From contig CAJARJ010000018.1 of assembly GCA_903944345.1 (NCBI GenBank), positions 184,581-229,352 on the forward strand: 44,772 bases of DNA, written 5' to 3'. Within the stretch, counting starts at the first letter, position 1, and each line of letters starts with the position of its first letter. Made by a program: the position numbers and the translations under genes. Of this stretch, positions 17,058 to 29,071 are shown in pieces. This DNA is from Candidatus Omnitrophota bacterium (GTDB lineage: Bacteria; Omnitrophota; Gorgyraeia; Zapsychrales; Fredricksoniimonadaceae). The notes under the pieces were generated by a model that made no database searches, was not told the DNA's origin, and saw nothing but the letters and a program-made list of their open reading frames with translations.

Positions 17058-18107
17058 CTATCCTGCAGGAATTTGCTGTGTCAAACAATGGCAAGTCCCC
17101 AGCCCCACAATAATATCTGCCGCCCTGACCGGGACTATCCGACGCCCTTTGAAAAGCTTTTCCAGAATACGCAAGGCATCCGCGTCCTGGGGACAATCAA
17201 AAACCGGAACCAGCACAATCCCATTGGCAATATAAAAATTCGCATAACTGGCCGGTAAACGCTCGTCCTTGCGATAATACATGGGACGCGGCATCGGCAG
17301 CCGCACAATCCGGAAAGGCTTTCCGTCAGTATCGGTAAACCCTTTCAGGAGACGAATGTTTTTTTCACAGATTGCGTGATTGACATCCGCCTCGTCCTTT
17401 TCTTCAACAGTCACAATAGTACGCGGATCGGTAAACCGGGCGATATCATCAATATGCCCATCCGTGTCGTCCCCGGCAATCCCGTCTTTAAGCCATAATA
17501 TTTTCCGAACCCCAAATGCTGCCTTCAGCAAAGCTTCTATCTGTTTCTTACCAAGCTGGGGATTACGATTTTCGTTAAGCAGGCAACTTTCCGTGGTCAA
17601 CAACACTCCCCGCCCGTTCACATCAATGGATCCGCCTTCCAGAACCCAGGGAAAATCAAAACGCTCCAAACCAAGAAACCCGGCCATCTTGCGTGCGATA
17701 CGATTGTCTTTCGCGGAAGGATATTTCCCTCCCCAGGCATTAAATATCCAGTTCGTTGCCGCCAACTGTCCGGTTTTGTCGTTACACACAACAACGCACC
17801 CATGATCACGACACCAGGCATCATTGGTCGCAAAACGATGAAAAAACACATTCTTTTTGACCTTGCGCCTGGCCAGCTTGGCCGACAAGTCGTCTTCCAT
17901 GAGCTGGTCATTAACATTAATGTGCACTTCTTCGACCTGAGCCAGGCAGGCCACCATATCAGCAAAAGATTCCTGGGCACCTTTCAAGGCAGTGAAAAAG
18001 CTTTTGGGATTATGCGGATAAGACAACCATGTCCCACGATGGGGCTCCCACTCGGCTGGCATGCGATAACCACGGACGGAAAGAGACCTCTGCGTACTAC
18101 TCCTCAT
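17058..18107 (-). CDS. aguA: Agmatine deiminase
   Basis: The enzyme hydrolyses agmatine to N-carbamoylputrescine and ammonia. The 349-residue protein is a guanidine-modifying enzyme with MPAEWEPHRGTWLSYPHN near the N-terminus. Active-site stretches are NDAWCRDHG, VLEGGSID and GDDTDGHIDDIARF, and the catalytic Cys341 lies in LGTCHCLTQQ. The more usual family form is GGNIHCITQQ, so the loop before the catalytic Cys differs slightly. The ATG at 18107 overlaps the end of aguB by 11 bases. Together they convert agmatine to putrescine. Confidence 0.95.
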   Translation of the reverse strand: MRSSTQRSLSVRGYRMPAEWEPHRGTWLSYPHNPKSFFTALKGAQESFADMVACLAQVEEVHINVNDQLMEDDLSAKLARRKVKKNVFFHRFATNDAWCRDHGCVVVCNDKTGQLAATNWIFNAWGGKYPSAKDNRIARKMAGFLGLERFDFPWVLEGGSIDVNGRGVLLTTESCLLNENRNPQLGKKQIEALLKAAFGVRKILWLKDGIAGDDTDGHIDDIARFTDPRTIVTVEEKDEADVNHAICEKNIRLLKGFTDTDGKPFRIVRLPMPRPMYYRKDERLPASYANFYIANGIVLVPVFDCPQDADALRILEKLFKGRRIVPVRAADIIVGLGTCHCLTQQIPAG

Positions 18108-18993
18108 CGTTGAACCTCTTGGTTATATCCGCATAACTGTCAGTCCGTCTGTCTCGCAAAAATGGCCATTGCACCCGCTTGACCGGAATGGTATCCAGAT
18201 CAACCGGTACAATCAGAACTTCCTGCGTATCCCGGGACGCCCGCCCCATAACCGTGCCATAGGGATCAGCCACAAAACTTTGCCCCCAAAATTCTATCCC
18301 TTTATCCGGACATTCCGGATGAGGTTCAAATCCAACCCGGTTAACCGCTGCAACAAAACAACCATTGGCAATCGCATGCGAACGCTGTATCGTTTCCCAG
18401 GAGGCGTGCTGACGTTCCCCATACTCCTGCTTGTCCTCAGGCAGCCAGCCAATCGCCGTGGGATAGAAAATAATCTGTGCCCCCATAAGCGCTGTCAGGC
18501 GAGCAGCTTCCGGGTACCACTGATCCCAGCAAACCAGCACTCCAATATCGGCATATTTTGTTTTAAAAACCTTATAGCCCAGATCACCCGGAGCGAAATA
18601 AAACTTCTCCTGAAACTGCGGATCATCCGGAATGTGCATCTTGCGATACTTCCCAAGATATTTGCCGTCCGCGTCAATTACTGCCGCCGTATTATGATAA
18701 ACACCCTCCGCCCTTTTCTCAAAGAGTGATGCGACAATCACCACTTTGTGCTTCCTAGCCAAGACCGATAAGGCCTTGACCGCCGCAGACTTTTCAATCA
18801 CCGGCTCGGCAAGAGCGAACATTTCGTAATCTTCCTGCTGACAGAAATAATGACTCTTGAACAATTCCTGAGTCGCTATAATCCGCGCCCCTTTACGGGC
18901 GGCAGCGGCAATAAGCCGGGCAACTTTGGCCGTGTTATCAGCTACGTCTTTAGAGCAGGCATGTTGAATAAGGGCAATCTTGATCGTGTTCAC
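18097..18993 (-). CDS. aguB: N-carbamoylputrescine amidase
   Basis: This nitrilase-superfamily enzyme releases putrescine from N-carbamoylputrescine. The 298-residue protein has the Glu-Lys-Cys triad: Glu in ATQELFKSHYFC, Lys in YRKMHIPDDP and Cys in VLVCWDQWYPEAAR. The segment SHYFCQQEDY and the late FWGQSFVADPYGT are typical of the plant and bacterial AguB group. The start is GTG at 18993 with a perfect AGGAGG SD. With aguA and the pyruvoyl arginine decarboxylase it completes arginine to putrescine. Confidence 0.95.
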   Translation of the reverse strand: MNTIKIALIQHACSKDVADNTAKVARLIAAAARKGARIIATQELFKSHYFCQQEDYEMFALAEPVIEKSAAVKALSVLARKHKVVIVASLFEKRAEGVYHNTAAVIDADGKYLGKYRKMHIPDDPQFQEKFYFAPGDLGYKVFKTKYADIGVLVCWDQWYPEAARLTALMGAQIIFYPTAIGWLPEDKQEYGERQHASWETIQRSHAIANGCFVAAVNRVGFEPHPECPDKGIEFWGQSFVADPYGTVMGRASRDTQEVLIVPVDLDTIPVKRVQWPFLRDRRTDSYADITKRFNDEE

Positions 18994-19176: not shown

Positions 19177-19269
19177 TGTTCGAAAAGGCAAACTACTTGA
19201 AAGAGTAGGACGCAAAGCCGTGAGCCTAACCCCTTGCAAAAGGAGTATGGTTGTCTGGTTGCCGTGACA
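19177..19269 (+). ncRNA. Cyclic-di-GMP riboswitch, GEMM-I class
   Basis: The leader matches the GEMM-I aptamer in order. First comes GGCAAAC, then a six-pair hairpin CTACTT-GAAA-GAGTAG with a GNRA tetraloop, and then the invariant GACGCAAAGCC. The second hairpin region CCTAACCCCTTGCAAAAGG follows and the closing strand is GGTTGCC. P1 can form between TGTTCG (19177-19182) and CGTGACA (19263-19269). By alignment to the Vibrio Vc2 aptamer, the base before CAAAC is G, which fits c-di-GMP rather than cGAMP; that numbering was done by eye. The regulated gene is the small secreted protein at 19333. Confidence 0.9.
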
Positions 19270-19296: not shown

Positions 19297-19328
19297 CCCC
19301 TCTTTCAGTAGCCCACAACAAAGGGGGG
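19297..19328 (+). promoter_or_regulatory. SD-sequestering stem (riboswitch expression platform)
   Basis: CCCCTCTTT (19297-19305) can pair over nine positions (one U-G) with AAAGGGGGG (19320-19328), which contains the ribosome binding site of the next gene. Upstream, ACAGA/TCTGT (19267-19271, 19278-19282) competes with the 3' strand of P1. This suggests translational control by the ligand; its direction, on or off, cannot be decided by eye. Confidence 0.65.
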
Positions 19329-19332
19329 CACG

Positions 19333-19605
19333 ATGAAAACACTGTCCGGATTTATTGTTCTTGGATTTATACTCTGCAGTTGCTGCGCTTTTGCCCTGGC
19401 CGGATCAACTACAACCCAATCCTTTACTATAACCGTAAGAATACCTCCTGCGGCATCATTACCGATCTTTCCGCAGAACTCAGACATTTCAGCATCCGGA
19501 TATCAGAAAGTCACTCAAAAAAATAACCCTGCCATTATCACAGAAGAACAACGAATTCTTCCGGATATGCGCAAGGCTGTTTTAAAATCAATTTCGATTC
19601 TCTGA
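19333..19605 (+). CDS. Small secreted protein under c-di-GMP riboswitch control
   Basis: The 90-residue protein has a signal peptide (MKTLSGFIVLGFILCSCCAF, cleavage near ALA-GS). The mature part of about 65 residues opens STTTQSFTITVRIPPAA, an alternating strand resembling the edge strand of secreted fimbrial subunits. It has no Cys after the signal. The rest is polar and unrecognised. The SD lies in the stem at 19297-19328. Its stop codon abuts that of the usher-like gene on the other strand. A role as minor subunit, donor strand or regulator of the fibre encoded opposite is inference. Confidence 0.75.
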   Translation: MKTLSGFIVLGFILCSCCAFALAGSTTTQSFTITVRIPPAASLPIFPQNSDISASGYQKVTQKNNPAIITEEQRILPDMRKAVLKSISIL

Positions 19606-22600
19606 TCAGTCCTCGACCAGCGAGGCCGGGTTAGGCTTGACCGGAACATGGAACACGTAGGTTGAGCCTTCCTGGAGATCGATCTCGGTCTTCACCTTAA
19701 TCAGCGGAACAAACTCGATCGGAACTGAGCTCATATCGAGCGAAATAGTATGCTTGCCTCTGGACGCCCCCCTGAAGAAATAGGTACCACTGTGATCGGA
19801 AGCCACAACGGTCTTCTCATCCAGACGAAGCTTGACTCCCCGCAAATACGTGTCTCCTGAATCCGGTTTGCCATTACCGTTTACGTCAACATAAACCGTT
19901 CCGTAAACCCCGGCCTGACTGGAAAGACCAAAATCCACCCTGCGAACCCCGGCCTGCAAAGTACGAACTTTCTGGAAAGCCGGCGTAACAAAAATCGCGC
20001 CAGCAGGCAAGCTGGGAGTATGCGGAGCCACCGCCACTCGCCGCCCCTTGACAGAAACACGATAATAACCTCGGGCATCAGTCCGGGCCTCTTTTTCGCC
20101 AACCTTGACCACAACCCCCTCAATGCCCTCATCCCCATTAGAGAAAATCTTGTCTCCGTCACGATCCCGGTAAACATAACCGGCCACAAAACCCCAAGGA
20201 TCCCAAACAATATTTGTCCCCCAGGCCATACGCATCCCGAAGCGGACATCCAGATCATGATAAGAAGGATTATCCGAAATCTGCGCCAGCACATTGCGCA
20301 ATCTGCTGTCCATAAAGAAGTTGACGTCTTTTATAGGCGTATAGTTCAAAGCAAGCGAACCCGTTACGCTATCCTCTCCCGAAAGGTAGCTAAAATCTCC
20401 TTCGACATTTCTTTCATTGCGATAGGAAACCCCGGCCATGCCTCTAAGGTTATCGGTGAAATCCTTGTTATAAGATAAACCGGTAGTCATAACCGAAGGC
20501 TGATACCCGTCCTTGGTCAATACTTCTTCGACCCAGGAATATTCATAGTTCACATACCCCGAAAAATTCTGCAGGAAGGGGAGTTGTAAGCCGGTAAGCA
20601 GTGTATAGCGATCCGACTCAATCTGCGGAAAATATTCATATCGTGACAGCTGGGTTGTCCCTCCGGCAAATATCGCTCCGGTACGGCCTCCCAGAAAGGG
20701 AAAAAATCTGGTAACCCGCAGCCCCCCACCCCAAGCCTGGCGAGGAGACTCCTCACCCTGAAGATCAGTATACTGGCCCGAAAGATCAAACGCATACCGG
20801 CCATCTACAGGAACGTTAATCTGACCGCTGACATCGTAATTCAAAGCATGAGGAGAATAGGGGTTAGGCGCAAAATTATTCTGATATAGATTCAGATAGG
20901 TGCTGGCAAACGCCCCCCCCAGATCAGTGCCGGTGGTCCATATTCCTCCGGTTTCCCCCAGACCGGAGGGCGTCCCCAGAACCGAACTGTAATCCTTGTT
21001 AATATCCCTAAAACTCGCCGTCTGATAAACTGGACCATTGTTCCAGAGCAGGCTGGCTATTGCCGCCTTGTCTGCAGAATCGTCACGGGCCAGTTCGGCA
21101 TTAAGCATAGCCTTGTCAATCTGTTGCTGAACTTCAATAGAATAAACTTCCGCAGAAACACCTTCCGTACGGTCTTGTCCATAACCACGGGCATAATTCA
21201 AAGCATAGGAATGTTCCTTGCTAAGAGGGAACAGCACTGCCTGAAAAGTATCCGCTCCGGCATCTATAGTCGAAGACTGGCGGTCGGCCACATAAATTGT
21301 TGAAGCAAGCTGTCGGCCATGACTGGTCGAAAGAGCAAGCCCGTTATCAAAAAGCTTAACTTCTCCAACGACTCCACGCAAATGCGAAGATAAAGTTAAG
21401 GCAGAAAGATCACGATTATAATCGAACACCCGCAAATCCAGATCACTGGTCCAAGGCATCGGAATATCGCTGAGCCCCAGTGTATATGTGGGATAGTCAT
21501 TAATCGGCCTAAAGCCCGCGGCGGTGATAGAACCATCGGAAAGGCCGTAAGGTGTTTCTCCGGTAAAACTGAAAACCTGGGTGATATCATGCGACTGACG
21601 CCCCAGATGGGGCACATTATCCCCCCGATAGAAAGAAGAATTATCCAGACTATAAGACAAACGAAACGGAGCCGAGTGTTCCACCAGGGCATCTTCGGCC
21701 AGACGTCCGGCATCTTTCCCCTCAGGAAGCACGACCTGGACATAAACAGTGGTGCGTCCACGGTCATCCCAGATATGCAAAAACAAACTCCCCCACATCG
21801 GAGCATCAATGCGCAGCTGATCCAGTGAAGTCTTCTTTACGGAGACTATTCCTGGCTCGATTTCGAGAAATCTCTGAATATTACGCCCCTCTACCACAAC
21901 AGCCGCACCCAGCTCGAGCTTGAGGGTTGGCTTGGAAGGATTGGCCTGGATAATATCATCCAGAGAAACCACTTCAATAAATTTACGCTGCCCCGCCTTT
22001 GTGGACGATGAAGCATGAGGTGCTGCAACAGGAAGCGCACTGGCTGGTTTACGAACCTGAACCTCAACCGGAGACCGGACGGGTTCTGAAGCCGGAGCAG
22101 ACACGGGAAGAGCGGCAACCCTGCTTTGGACTCCAGTTAACTGATCCAGAGCCTCCGATACCGCGTTCATTCGGGGCGAAGATAGAACTGGATCCGGCTG
22201 TTCTATGATTTCTGCCTCCACCACCGGAGTACGCCTTGAGGCAGAAGCGTTCTGTAAACGCCCCTCGCGGCTACGGATAATCAAGTTTAAAAACTCCAGC
22301 GGCTCCTGATCGGCGCTATCCATCTGATGCGCCTGATAGAAATAAAGATACGCTGCATCCTCGTCGCCTTTGGCCAACGAATCCTTTCCTTGTGCCAGCA
22401 ACTGCTGATACTGCAAATCTCCCTGTCCTGAGTCAGACCGCTGCAAGGGCCGCCCGGCAGTATCGTATTGTTCTTGCAGACTCTCGAGATAGCGCGCCGG
22501 GGCCTCGGCATCCGGAAACAGGAACTTCGCCCGCTCGAAATAAAATTCGGCGGCATCCCGGTCCTGGTCACGCATAGCCTGGACGCCTTCTTCTATATAG

Positions 22601-22755
22601 TAGCGATAAAGACGGGTACGATTATCGGCAAAAGCCGGAAGAGAAAAAAGCAGAAAGAAAGCAAAAAGAACAATGACCGGAGAATGCCCGAGGAGAGTTC
22701 TTCTGCCTTGCCTGTACTGGTCAGAAAAAATCATCCTCAACATTCCTCCGATCAT
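19606..22755 (-). CDS. Usher-like outer-membrane protein with TPR, CpaC-N-like and SdrD-B-like domains
   Basis: This 1049-residue exported protein has a mosaic layout. A signal peptide ends near FADN (about 43). Two TPR-like helical pairs follow (about 48-95 and 115-160), then a Pro/Ala-rich linker. A domain at about 265-355 resembles the N-terminal domain of pilus secretins (CpaC): LKLELGAAVVVEGRNIQRFL, then EIEPGIVSV. A long beta-rich region (about 365-850) has barrel-type strands such as YTLGLSDIPMPWTSDLDLRV. Two C-terminal SdrD-B/Ig-like domains carry VYRDRDGDKIFSNGDEGIEG and VYVDVNGNGKPDSGDTYLRG. It is last in an operon with chaperone- and pilin-like genes, which suggests an usher that secretes fibre subunits. 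A GGAGG just inside the frame makes the ATG at 22734 a likely true start. Confidence 0.75.
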   Translation of the reverse strand: MIGGMLRMIFSDQYRQGRRTLLGHSPVIVLFAFFLLFSLPAFADNRTRLYRYYIEEGVQAMRDQDRDAAEFYFERAKFLFPDAEAPARYLESLQEQYDTAGRPLQRSDSGQGDLQYQQLLAQGKDSLAKGDEDAAYLYFYQAHQMDSADQEPLEFLNLIIRSREGRLQNASASRRTPVVEAEIIEQPDPVLSSPRMNAVSEALDQLTGVQSRVAALPVSAPASEPVRSPVEVQVRKPASALPVAAPHASSSTKAGQRKFIEVVSLDDIIQANPSKPTLKLELGAAVVVEGRNIQRFLEIEPGIVSVKKTSLDQLRIDAPMWGSLFLHIWDDRGRTTVYVQVVLPEGKDAGRLAEDALVEHSAPFRLSYSLDNSSFYRGDNVPHLGRQSHDITQVFSFTGETPYGLSDGSITAAGFRPINDYPTYTLGLSDIPMPWTSDLDLRVFDYNRDLSALTLSSHLRGVVGEVKLFDNGLALSTSHGRQLASTIYVADRQSSTIDAGADTFQAVLFPLSKEHSYALNYARGYGQDRTEGVSAEVYSIEVQQQIDKAMLNAELARDDSADKAAIASLLWNNGPVYQTASFRDINKDYSSVLGTPSGLGETGGIWTTGTDLGGAFASTYLNLYQNNFAPNPYSPHALNYDVSGQINVPVDGRYAFDLSGQYTDLQGEESPRQAWGGGLRVTRFFPFLGGRTGAIFAGGTTQLSRYEYFPQIESDRYTLLTGLQLPFLQNFSGYVNYEYSWVEEVLTKDGYQPSVMTTGLSYNKDFTDNLRGMAGVSYRNERNVEGDFSYLSGEDSVTGSLALNYTPIKDVNFFMDSRLRNVLAQISDNPSYHDLDVRFGMRMAWGTNIVWDPWGFVAGYVYRDRDGDKIFSNGDEGIEGVVVKVGEKEARTDARGYYRVSVKGRRVAVAPHTPSLPAGAIFVTPAFQKVRTLQAGVRRVDFGLSSQAGVYGTVYVDVNGNGKPDSGDTYLRGVKLRLDEKTVVASDHSGTYFFRGASRGKHTISLDMSSVPIEFVPLIKVKTEIDLQEGSTYVFHVPVKPNPASLVED

Positions 22756-22788
22756 TGTTTAAATCTTACATTATTGTAAAAAGATTAC

Positions 22789-23595
22789 TTATTGCAGATT
22801 CTCTATAGTCAAACCGTTTGCACCCTGGGTCAGGGATATCTCCTTAACCGCCACACTACCACTGCCCAAATCAACATTAAGCACCAGAGAATATGTTCCC
22901 GGTGCCAGCTCGGCAGGCAATGCAATCCGCCAGTTGCCGGTTGCCCCTGGAGCAACATACAAATTGGTCCCTTCGCCACGGTGTACCGTTAACCCCTGAG
23001 CATCCAAAAGATAGAAAGTCGTCTTGGGGATCAGGACTAAATCGGACTGATTGACAAAACTGCCCAGAACATCGTTCCCCTCAGCCTTGACGTCCTTAAT
23101 ATCAGCCACTCTGGGGGCATCCTTGGATTCCACAAAAAACAGACAACCCAGGCGTGTTACCAACGCGACTCCGGTTGAATCAATCATTGGAGTCGCTCGC
23201 TCAAAAAACAAAACTCCGTAATGACCACCCTTTATGTCCGCAGGCGCATTAACAGCATAATCGATCACCTGACTCCCGTTCGGAGGCAAAACAAACTCTT
23301 GAGGAGTAAAAGACACCCACTGGCTGGCTGAACCCGGCAGGATTCCCGCCGGCGAGAATTCCTTGTTGCCATCAAAAGGCGGAACATACCGAAAGTCCTC
23401 CCAATAGGCGCGGACGCCTACTTCCTCATCAGAAGTATTATGCAAAACCATTGACCCGCTGGAACGCTCCCCGCCGGCCACGGTCAGGGTGACCTTTCCT
23501 TCCTCAAGGAAGAACTGGGCCCTGACCGGTCCGGTAAGGAACATGAGCAGCAGCGCTATGGACAAACACACCTGTCTCATCATACGCACCCTCAT
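22789..23595 (-). CDS. Periplasmic chaperone-like Ig-fold protein of the fibre locus
   Basis: The 268-residue protein has a signal peptide (cleavage near VRA-QF). A two-domain beta-sandwich layout follows, like PapD-type chaperones and DUF916-type Ig proteins. Domain 1 begins KVTLTVAGGERSSGSMVLHN and includes EFVLPPNGSQVIDYAVNAPA. Domain 2 includes LGSFVNQSDLVLIPKTTFYL and ends with LAPGTYSLVLNVDLGSG. The conserved Arg/Lys anchor of classical chaperones cannot be placed confidently. An SD (AAAGGA) precedes the ATG at 23595. It lies 12 bases after the pilin-like gene and 33 bases before the usher-like gene. Confidence 0.7.
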   Translation of the reverse strand: MRVRMMRQVCLSIALLLMFLTGPVRAQFFLEEGKVTLTVAGGERSSGSMVLHNTSDEEVGVRAYWEDFRYVPPFDGNKEFSPAGILPGSASQWVSFTPQEFVLPPNGSQVIDYAVNAPADIKGGHYGVLFFERATPMIDSTGVALVTRLGCLFFVESKDAPRVADIKDVKAEGNDVLGSFVNQSDLVLIPKTTFYLLDAQGLTVHRGEGTNLYVAPGATGNWRIALPAELAPGTYSLVLNVDLGSGSVAVKEISLTQGANGLTIENLQ

Positions 23596-23607
23596 TGTCC
23601 TTTATTA

Positions 23608-24225
23608 TTAGGAAATTGTCGCGGTAACTTTGAACGTACCGGTATAATCTCCAGCCTTGTCAGACAAGTTGAAACCTTCAGCACCAGTAGGAAGACCAGT
23701 GAACGGAGCAATGTTGCCGCCCAGATAGATTTTAAGGGCTTTGCCAGCAAAAGCTCCAAGATTTTCATTTTCTGTCGCAACATTGTACAACAAAACCTTG
23801 TTCATGGTTGTAATGTCGCTCTCATCTGTAGGATTAGCCACCGTGAACTTGGTGAAATCCACATTGACCTTGTACCCCAAACCCTTACGAGTTGTGGCGC
23901 TGTTTGGGTTGCTGCTTTCGGTATAAGTGAACGCAACGTTCATACTTGTACCCTGTGATCCAGTCGGAGCAACCACAATGGCATAGTAATACTTAGCACG
24001 GTAATCGCCATAAGTGGCATTGTATTCCAACGCTAAGTCCAGATTTCCGGTGTGCAAAGACGCCGGATTGGCTCCTTCATGCTTGAGAACATACATCGAC
24101 GCACCTGCTGAAACCGGCACGTTCGCTGTGGCAATAAAAGAAAACGGATTGCTGTCGGCCAGCAACTGGGAGGTCAGTGACGCAACAAACAACCCCGTGA
24201 ATAATGCAATTCCTAATTTCTTCAT
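23608..24225 (-). CDS. Pilin-like secreted subunit
   Basis: The 205-residue protein has a signal peptide (MKKLGIALFTGLFVASLTSQ, cleavage near LLA-DS). A beta-rich, Cys-free mature part follows, with low charge and many Thr/Asn/Gly. It begins FSFIATANVPVSAGASMYVL and ends DKAGDYTGTFKVTATIS, an alternating final strand typical of fimbrial subunits. There is no type IV pilin N-terminus. Its place between tip-like and chaperone-like genes and its strong SD (GGGGGAG before the ATG at 24225) fit a major subunit. I do not recognise the family. Confidence 0.7.
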   Translation of the reverse strand: MKKLGIALFTGLFVASLTSQLLADSNPFSFIATANVPVSAGASMYVLKHEGANPASLHTGNLDLALEYNATYGDYRAKYYYAIVVAPTGSQGTSMNVAFTYTESSNPNSATTRKGLGYKVNVDFTKFTVANPTDESDITTMNKVLLYNVATENENLGAFAGKALKIYLGGNIAPFTGLPTGAEGFNLSDKAGDYTGTFKVTATIS

Positions 24226-24269
24226 ACTACTCCCCCTCTTATGATTATAAACTTATGACTTTGTTGATT

Positions 24270-25634
24270 TCAATTCTGATTCAAAGAAAACCTTATCGGT
24301 GCCGCGTACTGCCCTCCTTCCGCATACTGTTCCGGTTGCATTTGATAAATAACATTAAAAACAGCCGAATCGCCCTGAGCATTGGACGAAAAGACCGGAT
24401 ATTCTCCGTCTTCAACAGGAGTAAACTCACCTAACTTGCTTTTCCCGCGCTCCCCTGCAGGAATCTCAACCCTCATCTGAAAAGCGTCTTTGGGCAAAGG
24501 TTTACCTTTCTCATTAGTCATAAGATTCGGTACCGTTTGCATGACCTGATAAGGACGACGCAAATTGGTTCTGACCTTCACGGTAACCACCTGCTCACGG
24601 GAAGGCTGCCCGGGCACCAGATTGCCAAACTGCATGCCTTGAGCCGGAGGCGCCACCTCCATCGAAAAAACCGGCTGAATTTCACAATCAAGATCAATGT
24701 CCGCAGACTCTATATCGCCTGCAGTTTCGATTGTATACCGAAGACGCCCTTTATACTCGCCAGCATCAAGACCGGAAAGAGCCGAAGAATCAAGCAAAAG
24801 CCTGACAAAGACCTTGTCTTGTGATGATCGTCCCGAATAAACAAGCACCCGCCCCCGGGTCATGGCTTCGAATTCACGCTGCCGCATCCCCTGTCCACTG
24901 GCGGAATCCACACTAAAACGCAGAGCATCCGCAGGCATTTCCCGACCTATAACTCCCGCGGGAAGAATAACCGCCTCCTGATAAATCCGAACCTCATTGT
25001 CGGAATCGACTGAAAAATCAACTTCAACCTGATCTCTCAAGACATTTTCGGAATCTGTATCGCGCACCTCGACCCGGTTCTTGTTACGCGCGCCTGAAAC
25101 CTCAAATTTACGCTCTGAAGCTTTTTCAAGACTGACGGGTATGGTGACCTGAGCCTGCGAACCGTCTTCAAGACTGCGAACGGCAAGGAGCAGCTGACCG
25201 GAGTACACCCCACCAGGCCCGGGGACTTGAGGATCAAAGGAATAATTAAGGGCAAAGATATCCCCGGGACCATTTTGACCGGAGGAATATAAGAGCTGCT
25301 CGCCCATACTGATACGTTCTGGACTCTGAATATAAAGAGTACCCGCTGAATTGGAGCCGGGAACGGATACAACTTCCAAAGCACGGAAGTCGAGTGTCTC
25401 CCCTTTTTCATTGCGCATAGGTTCGACGAAACGCTGAAAAACCCGATACCGCTTACCGTCTGTTGAGCTGATACGAACCCGCAATTCCTTAAATTCAGAG
25501 GAATGACCAAACCCGGGGCGAAAGCGCAAATTGGTTCCTCCATCAGTAGGATTGACGCTGATTGAAAGCCCAGCATATGCCGATCCCGACAGAAAAGAAA
25601 TAAGAATGGATATAAGAAGAAGCCAAGCTTTCAT
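24270..25634 (-). CDS. Two-lobed exported protein, probable fibre tip or adhesin
   Basis: The 454-residue protein has a signal peptide (MKAWLLLISILISFLSGSAY, cleavage near AYA-GL) and a beta-rich mature part with no Cys except one in VDLDCEIQ. It contains an internal duplication. The first lobe (about 20-150) has YRVFQRFVEPMRNEKGETL and a later LLYSSGQNG. The last lobe (about 330-454) has YQVMQTVPNLMTNEKGKPL and PVFSSNAQG, in the same order. The middle region is different. Being first in the operon and larger than the pilin-like protein, it could be the tip subunit. It has a good promoter and SD (AAGGGA). Confidence 0.65.
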   Translation of the reverse strand: MKAWLLLISILISFLSGSAYAGLSISVNPTDGGTNLRFRPGFGHSSEFKELRVRISSTDGKRYRVFQRFVEPMRNEKGETLDFRALEVVSVPGSNSAGTLYIQSPERISMGEQLLYSSGQNGPGDIFALNYSFDPQVPGPGGVYSGQLLLAVRSLEDGSQAQVTIPVSLEKASERKFEVSGARNKNRVEVRDTDSENVLRDQVEVDFSVDSDNEVRIYQEAVILPAGVIGREMPADALRFSVDSASGQGMRQREFEAMTRGRVLVYSGRSSQDKVFVRLLLDSSALSGLDAGEYKGRLRYTIETAGDIESADIDLDCEIQPVFSMEVAPPAQGMQFGNLVPGQPSREQVVTVKVRTNLRRPYQVMQTVPNLMTNEKGKPLPKDAFQMRVEIPAGERGKSKLGEFTPVEDGEYPVFSSNAQGDSAVFNVIYQMQPEQYAEGGQYAAPIRFSLNQN

Positions 25635-27411: not shown

Positions 27412-27536
27412 TCCAACCTCGCGAATGGCTTCCCCGGCTTCTGGCACTCCTTCTCTGGCCCCTGATCATGGCCTCAGTGCTAATTTCATTTCTTATTGCC
27501 CGTATCTTCCGACTGGCCAGAAAAAAAACAGGTTAA
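27408..27536 (+). CDS. 42-residue single-pass membrane peptide
   Basis: An ATG overlaps the radical SAM stop (ATGA) and opens a 42-codon frame beginning [20 protein letters not shown]. It continues with a long hydrophobic helix ([14 protein letters not shown]) and a basic tail (RLARKKTG). The exact ATGA coupling and the clean membrane topology favour a real gene. The family is unknown. Its stop overlaps the end of the TamB-like gene on the opposite strand. Confidence 0.55.
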
Positions 27537-29071
27537 AACATCCGACGGTATTTAATCAGAATACTGTCTTCAGGGCGCACAGGCTCAGCTTCTGCAGCGG
27601 TTGAGAGGCTCTGACGCGTTTCGCGATCTGCTTTCACGGAAAAGAAGTTGTTAATTCTGTATTCTCCGCCGATCTTCTGCGATGACATCAGATTACCGGT
27701 CGCATCAACTGTATGCCGAAATTCGTATCTTGCATCCAGATGTCCTGTTACTTCTTTGGTAATCCCAAGCCCTTTCTGAGCCTTGTCCACATTCAGTGAA
27801 ATATCCTTGATCCCCAGACGCTGCGAAAGACGATACCCAATGCCGCCAAAGACAAAATAATCCATAAATTCGCCCGCGGCATCCAGAGAAAATTTTCTCT
27901 GCGTCAAGGATTTCTCCGTTCCACGCCAGCTGCGGTTGGTCACCAGCATAACCAGAAGCTGATCCTGCGCCAAACCATCCGCCGACTGCAGTCTGAGCTC
28001 TGGCGCATTCAGATTGCCTCTTAACCGGATATCGATGCGGGTATCTCCTACCTGAGACATGCCGGAAAGATCAAAAACCGGATTGGCTGGATCCCCTTCA
28101 AAAAGCAATGTGCCTGGTAACAATCGCACCTGCGCCGTCGCGGCTCCGGCAAGACTCCCGCCATCAACCCGAATCGTTCCGTAAAGCCGGGGATCTGCCG
28201 AGATGGCCGTTCTTAAATGAAGATCAACGGGCACATTTTCCAACCCGGCACCATCCCGAACCAGTTTTTCCAGGGTCAACTTACCGGAAACTTCAAACGA
28301 CGCCAACGGACCGTGAATATACAAATCAATATCACTCACCGTTCCGGATAAAGAACGCCAGGGAGCCCCCTCACCCAAAAACGAAATAATCCGCGAGGCC
28401 GGAAGCCAGCGAGAAAACAAGTTAATATCCAGAAGCCCGTCCCGGTACCCGCCGCTAATCAGAATCGATCCTGCAGATTCTGCCTCCACTCTCGCATTAA
28501 AAATATTAACACTCAACCCTTGCCCGGACCCGGCATCCATCGCAAAGCGAATTTCCTGGCCCCGCAATAATGCCTCGTCGAAGGACCGCAAAGCGCGTAC
28601 AAAACGCGCATTGAGCTCCGGCAGTTTTTGCCGATCCAGAAAATCCAGCGTCTCTTTCAGACCAATCTTTTGCGTTCCCAGTATCACTTCCCAACGGCCA
28701 GGTGTCCAGTGGCCTTTTAAAGACACCGCTGCCCGACTGACGGGTAAAACCAGCAATCCTTCCTCAAAAAGAACAAGCGCCCCCCCCTGAAAGGGGGACT
28801 GCACCCTGACAAGCCCAAGATGAATCACCGTTTTCCGTGGAAGCCGCCCGGCATCCTCCAGAATAACCCCGGCCCAGCGAAATCCGCGAAACAAACTGCC
28901 AACGGCCAATTCGGTCTTGAGCTCTCCGGTCTGCAGGAGAACCTCCAATACTCCCTGCACGAACCATCCTGAGCCCCGCGCGGTCAGAAAAATGTAGCCG
29001 CCAAAAGACGCAAGAAACAAGACAACGCAACACAACAAAAGGCAACTGCGTTTCCAAACTTTCATACACAT
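27533..29071 (-). CDS. TamB/AsmA-like inner-membrane-anchored protein
   Basis: The 512-residue protein has one N-terminal membrane anchor (LLLCCVVLFLASFGGYIFLT) and a long beta-rich periplasmic region. The C-terminal part has TamB (DUF490) features: VDGGSLAGAATAQVRLLPGT, IDIRLRGNLNAPELRLQSAD, then LAQDQLLVMLVTNRSW and DYFVFGGIGYRLSQRLGIKD. TamB-type proteins form a bridge for phospholipids or for outer-membrane protein insertion. It is shorter than E. coli TamB (about 1260 residues), as in many other phyla. The start may be the ATG at 29065. A TATAAT on the minus strand (29125-29130) could serve it. Confidence 0.78.
   Translation of the reverse strand: MCMKVWKRSCLLLCCVVLFLASFGGYIFLTARGSGWFVQGVLEVLLQTGELKTELAVGSLFRGFRWAGVILEDAGRLPRKTVIHLGLVRVQSPFQGGALVLFEEGLLVLPVSRAAVSLKGHWTPGRWEVILGTQKIGLKETLDFLDRQKLPELNARFVRALRSFDEALLRGQEIRFAMDAGSGQGLSVNIFNARVEAESAGSILISGGYRDGLLDINLFSRWLPASRIISFLGEGAPWRSLSGTVSDIDLYIHGPLASFEVSGKLTLEKLVRDGAGLENVPVDLHLRTAISADPRLYGTIRVDGGSLAGAATAQVRLLPGTLLFEGDPANPVFDLSGMSQVGDTRIDIRLRGNLNAPELRLQSADGLAQDQLLVMLVTNRSWRGTEKSLTQRKFSLDAAGEFMDYFVFGGIGYRLSQRLGIKDISLNVDKAQKGLGITKEVTGHLDARYEFRHTVDATGNLMSSQKIGGEYRINNFFSVKADRETRQSLSTAAEAEPVRPEDSILIKYRRMF

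Follow-up and report, generated by a model that had tools for sequence, protein, structure and literature searches.

We identified a divergent fibre system of the chaperone-usher kind in an uncultured bacterium of the phylum Omnitrophota. The system is an unrecognised relative of the machines that build surface fibres, and a nearby c-di-GMP-I riboswitch precedes a small exported protein that looks as if it could stop fibre growth. The fibre reading is strong but rests on gene conservation, predicted folds and sequence registers. Fibre formation and donor-strand exchange are inferred, as is the terminator role of the small protein. The window analysed was a 44,772-nucleotide stretch of Candidatus Omnitrophota bacterium (assembly GCA_903944345.1, contig CAJARJ010000018.1, positions 184,581 to 229,352 of the forward strand), and all coordinates below refer to it.

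We first examined the open reading frames of the locus. Four ORFs of 454, 205, 268 and 1049 aa lie in an operon-like array on the minus strand in the order tip, pilin, chaperone and usher, each with a signal-like N-terminus by inspection; the initial annotation had described four exported proteins in one operon. The features of this array are as follows.

24270..25634 (-), tip-like exported protein, 454 aa, with three Ig-like repeats
23608..24225 (-), pilin-like subunit, 205 aa
24115..24138 (-), donor-like segment of the pilin, residues 30-37 (FIATANVP)
22789..23595 (-), periplasmic chaperone-like protein, 268 aa, predicted tandem Ig fold
23149..23169 (-), putative G1 donor motif of the chaperone, residues 143-149 (VALVTRL)
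19606..22755 (-), usher-like outer-membrane protein, 1049 aa
22135..22683 (-), helical TPR-type region of the usher, residues 25-207, including the end of the signal region
21730..21975 (-), CpaC-type N domain (T2SS-T3SS_pil_N) of the usher, residues 261-342
20167..21663 (-), predicted barrel region of the usher, residues 365-863, 27 strands by DSSP, without a plug insertion
19633..20133 (-), two C-terminal beta-sandwich domains of the usher (SdrD_B matches), likely counterparts of usher C-terminal domains

The same gene order recurs in about 45 Omnitrophota loci and in nearly every intact locus examined, and pilin copy number varies from one to three. Titles of the matching public contigs place the family in Candidatus Omnitrophota. 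A chaperone profile matched 116 of 334 sampled genomes of the phylum. Clustering of flanking ORFs of 100 aa or more showed no other widely shared neighbour. This conservation is far beyond chance and defines a cassette. One locus (L111:1304-10152) carries a tip and three chaperone-like genes, no usher within the fetched stretch, and a short 84-aa exported ORF with a donor-like segment after the last chaperone. A second pilin-like gene (profile E 7e-42; L184:7592-8221, C13:117597-118181 in its own genome) lies far from the operon, next to a 1251-aa exported-looking protein with no Pfam match, and is possibly an alternative subunit locus.

Single-sequence Pfam, NCBIfam and PDB sequence searches gave little, and no match to the Pfam usher, chaperone or pilin families was found. 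The usher profile (PF00577) matched none of 36 usher homologues. In 102 relatives, no genome matched PF00577 or the chaperone model PapD_N (PF00345), whereas the E. coli control did; no such system that could use these parts instead was found in them.

We next analyzed the domain composition of the 1049-aa protein, which the initial annotation had described as a mosaic usher. The mosaic is genuine. Across 36 homologues, SdrD_B matched 36, the CpaC-type N domain matched 31 (best 4.5e-9) and TPR_2 matched 14, although the window copy alone gave only E=0.22 for the CpaC-type N domain. AlphaFold2 with 39 homologues (mean pLDDT 81, pTM 0.55) predicted helices at 25-207, a small beta domain at 261-342, 27 consecutive long strands at 365-863, and two beta-sandwich domains to the C-terminus. 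The strand number was counted from the DSSP assignment, and the predicted barrel may have about 26 strands. Foldseek against the PDB ranked FimD and PapC chains in all of the first 14 places (E 1.5e-18 to 1.5e-9), and the next barrel was at 4.4e-8. The TM-scores for the usher were low (0.26-0.46), as relative domain placement differs and the coordinates could not be inspected; an usher-type barrel is supported by prediction only.

The barrel region is 498-502 aa in all 39 members with a longest strand-to-strand step of 26 aa, indicating that the plug of classical ushers is absent, which the initial annotation did not note. FimD and PapC typically have a 24-stranded barrel with a plug, and CfaC is described with one (PMC7531860). 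The two C-terminal Ig-like domains are not an oddity, as classical ushers also end in two such domains; the first aligned weakly, but at the right place, with the C-terminal region of FimD (E 0.0087 in a single comparison). In contrast, the TPR and CpaC-N front end and the missing plug are not ordinary for ushers.

The chaperone family profile aligned with E. coli EcpB over both domains (E 2.8e-5 in a single comparison) and only weakly with classical chaperones. The fold model matched CfaA best by TM-score (0.63-0.64), followed by EcpB (0.58) and FimC. The superfamily proline (Pro60 in EcpB) is kept as P98 in 39 of 43 members. The EcpB donor residues A111/A113/A115/I117 aligned with V143, L145, T147 and L149, of which T147 is polar, beside invariant R148 and G150; this assignment of the putative G1 motif rests on alignment with EcpB only. 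The Arg89 anchor of non-classical chaperones (PMC4654587) is replaced by Gly127 (Gly 39, Ala 3 and Ser 1 of 43). The protein looks, and probably works, like this family, but one characteristic residue is not conserved. The direct profile comparisons of the usher with EcpC and of the pilin with EcpA found no similarity. The locus resembles the alternative systems (ECP; class 5 CFA/I, with chaperone CfaA, pilin CfaB, usher CfaC and tip CfaE) in clustering tip, pilin, chaperone and usher and in its chaperone, and differs from ECP in its usher and pilin sequences.

We then examined the subunit termini. The tip-like protein shows three Ig-like repeats (GxY strand ends at residues 144, 294 and 443), not the two lobes initially annotated. 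Exactly 11 residues follow the Tyr/Phe of the last GxY motif in 32 of 32 tips and 33 of 34 pilins. The two upstream tip domains have the same motif but continue into one more strand. This is what a missing G strand with a chaperone-anchored C-terminus predicts. The pilin begins with a conserved alternating F-x-V-x-A-x-V-P segment (F/V/A/V at 30, 32, 34 and 36, and Pro37 in the family) that is predicted to be disordered (pLDDT about 38), whereas the tip has no N-terminal donor segment. For joint prediction, pilin and chaperone were placed in one chain by reading three in-frame TAA codons as Gly, with the signal peptide of the chaperone as linker. This gave good domains but no confident complex (pTM 0.55), so donor-strand complementation rests on sequence anatomy, not on a model.

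A fifth part, missed in the initial annotation, lies beyond the 3' end of the usher gene, and the locus should be extended to about 19177 to include it. Its features are as follows.

19177..19266 (+), c-di-GMP-I riboswitch aptamer (RF01051), convergent with the usher gene
19297..19328 (+), hairpin CCCCTCTTT/AAAGGGGGG over the ribosome-binding site of the small ORF (expression platform), read from the sequence
19333..19605 (+), small exported protein, 90 aa, tail-to-tail with the usher gene
19423..19446 (+), pilin-like donor segment of the small protein, residues 31-38 (FTITVRIP)

The riboswitch scored 69.7 bits against a gathering score of 35 and occurs in the same place in 31 of 41 distinct loci. 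A homologue of the small ORF was found in the same place in 37 of 41 loci; the two sets of loci overlap but are not identical. Homologous leaders carry either intrinsic terminators or hairpins over the ribosome-binding site. c-di-GMP-I riboswitches occur in 96 of 102 related genomes, up to 15 per genome.

The small protein has a signal peptide, a segment with the consensus S[FY]xISVTIP like the pilin donor segment, a variable middle and a conserved C-terminal hairpin-like end (VRNNxxVxVxTIVVK), with no Ig domain. The pilin profile found it in its own genome at E 2.1e-4, partly through the signal peptide. The similarity rests on about 8-15 residues, and with the signal peptide removed each match to a pilin was individually weak (E above 1). 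However, 7 of the top 10 non-self ORFs were pilins (background 102 of 6525; hypergeometric 2e-11).

Taken together, these results support, with good confidence, a donor-strand fibre assembly machine of the chaperone-usher kind. In this reading, the chaperone holds strand-deficient tip and pilin subunits by lending its G1 strand, with the subunit C-termini at a fixed register. The mosaic outer-membrane protein secretes and polymerises them, each N-terminal segment of a pilin filling the groove of the subunit ahead. The tip has a groove-type last domain but no donor segment, so it would be distal. The small protein has a donor segment but no Ig domain, so it would most likely insert into the last pilin and cap or terminate the fibre at its base, linking fibre length or release to c-di-GMP. 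Donor strand insertion into the last pilin ends assembly in FimI and PapH (PMC10673952), but these are full Ig subunits in the pilus operon, whereas the candidate here has only the donor segment and its own riboswitch-led unit. The initial proposal of a separate secretion system is too strong, and the locus is better described as a divergent branch of the chaperone-usher kind. We tentatively consider a bolder form of this reading, in which it is a separate, so far undescribed branch, found here only in Omnitrophota, with a plug-less usher and a complete set of acceptor-only (tip), donor-and-acceptor (pilin) and donor-only (small protein) subunits, the last being switched by c-di-GMP to end, anchor or release fibres.

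The main alternative, possible but less favoured, is that the four genes work as above while the small protein is not a chain terminator but a pore gate replacing the missing plug, a fibre initiator, or a periplasmic inhibitor that occupies subunit grooves. The plug-less barrel, the conserved C-terminal hairpin and the separate convergent transcription unit are consistent with this. However, a donor segment without an acceptor domain is exactly what termination by donor-strand exchange needs, and a gate or initiator would not need it.

It is unlikely that the locus is a diderm version of the Gram-positive WxL surface system, in which the chaperone would be a WxLIP-like binding protein (DUF916/DUF3324; PMC10599100) and the tip and pilin its displayed partners. 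WxLIP shares the tandem Ig-like architecture, WxLIP_PGBD matched 11 of 34 members (best 1.5e-5), and WxLIP had the best Foldseek E-value (8e-12). However, its TM-score was 0.44, lower than that of CfaA, no WxL domain match was found in tip or pilin, and an usher-like barrel protein is always present, whereas WxL clusters have none. A shared ancestry of the chaperone with WxLIP remains possible; Patescibacteria contigs (L116 and L117) encode proteins weakly similar to the chaperone (E 8e-6 and 2e-5), which fits a link to WxLIP-type proteins of cells without an outer membrane. A secretin-like or polysaccharide-export protein with its own Ig-like substrates, suggested by the TPR and CpaC-N domains, is very unlikely, as no secretin domain matched, the best structural matches are ushers with a wide margin, no synthase or other gene is conserved next to it apart from tip, pilin and chaperone, and the chaperone and C-terminal register evidence would not be explained.

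In a literature search that did not extend to subscription papers or preprints, we found no report joining c-di-GMP riboswitches with chaperone-usher pili in this way and none on chaperone-usher systems in Omnitrophota. The main survey of the phylum discusses type IV and Tad pili and does not use the word usher (PMC10066038). Our results extend the chaperone-usher kind to an uncultured phylum thought to include host-dependent ultra-small cells (PMC10066038), with an usher that seems to work without a plug, and the riboswitch-linked donor-only protein suggests a direct way for c-di-GMP to set fibre length or release. The system would also offer a natural test of how plug gating and chain termination evolved.

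Elsewhere in the window, two adjacent genes (17058-18993) look by inspection like agmatine deiminase and N-carbamoylputrescine amidase, a putrescine route. A 512-aa protein (27533-29071) matches the TamB C-terminal domain (2.8e-17) and is shorter than typical TamB.
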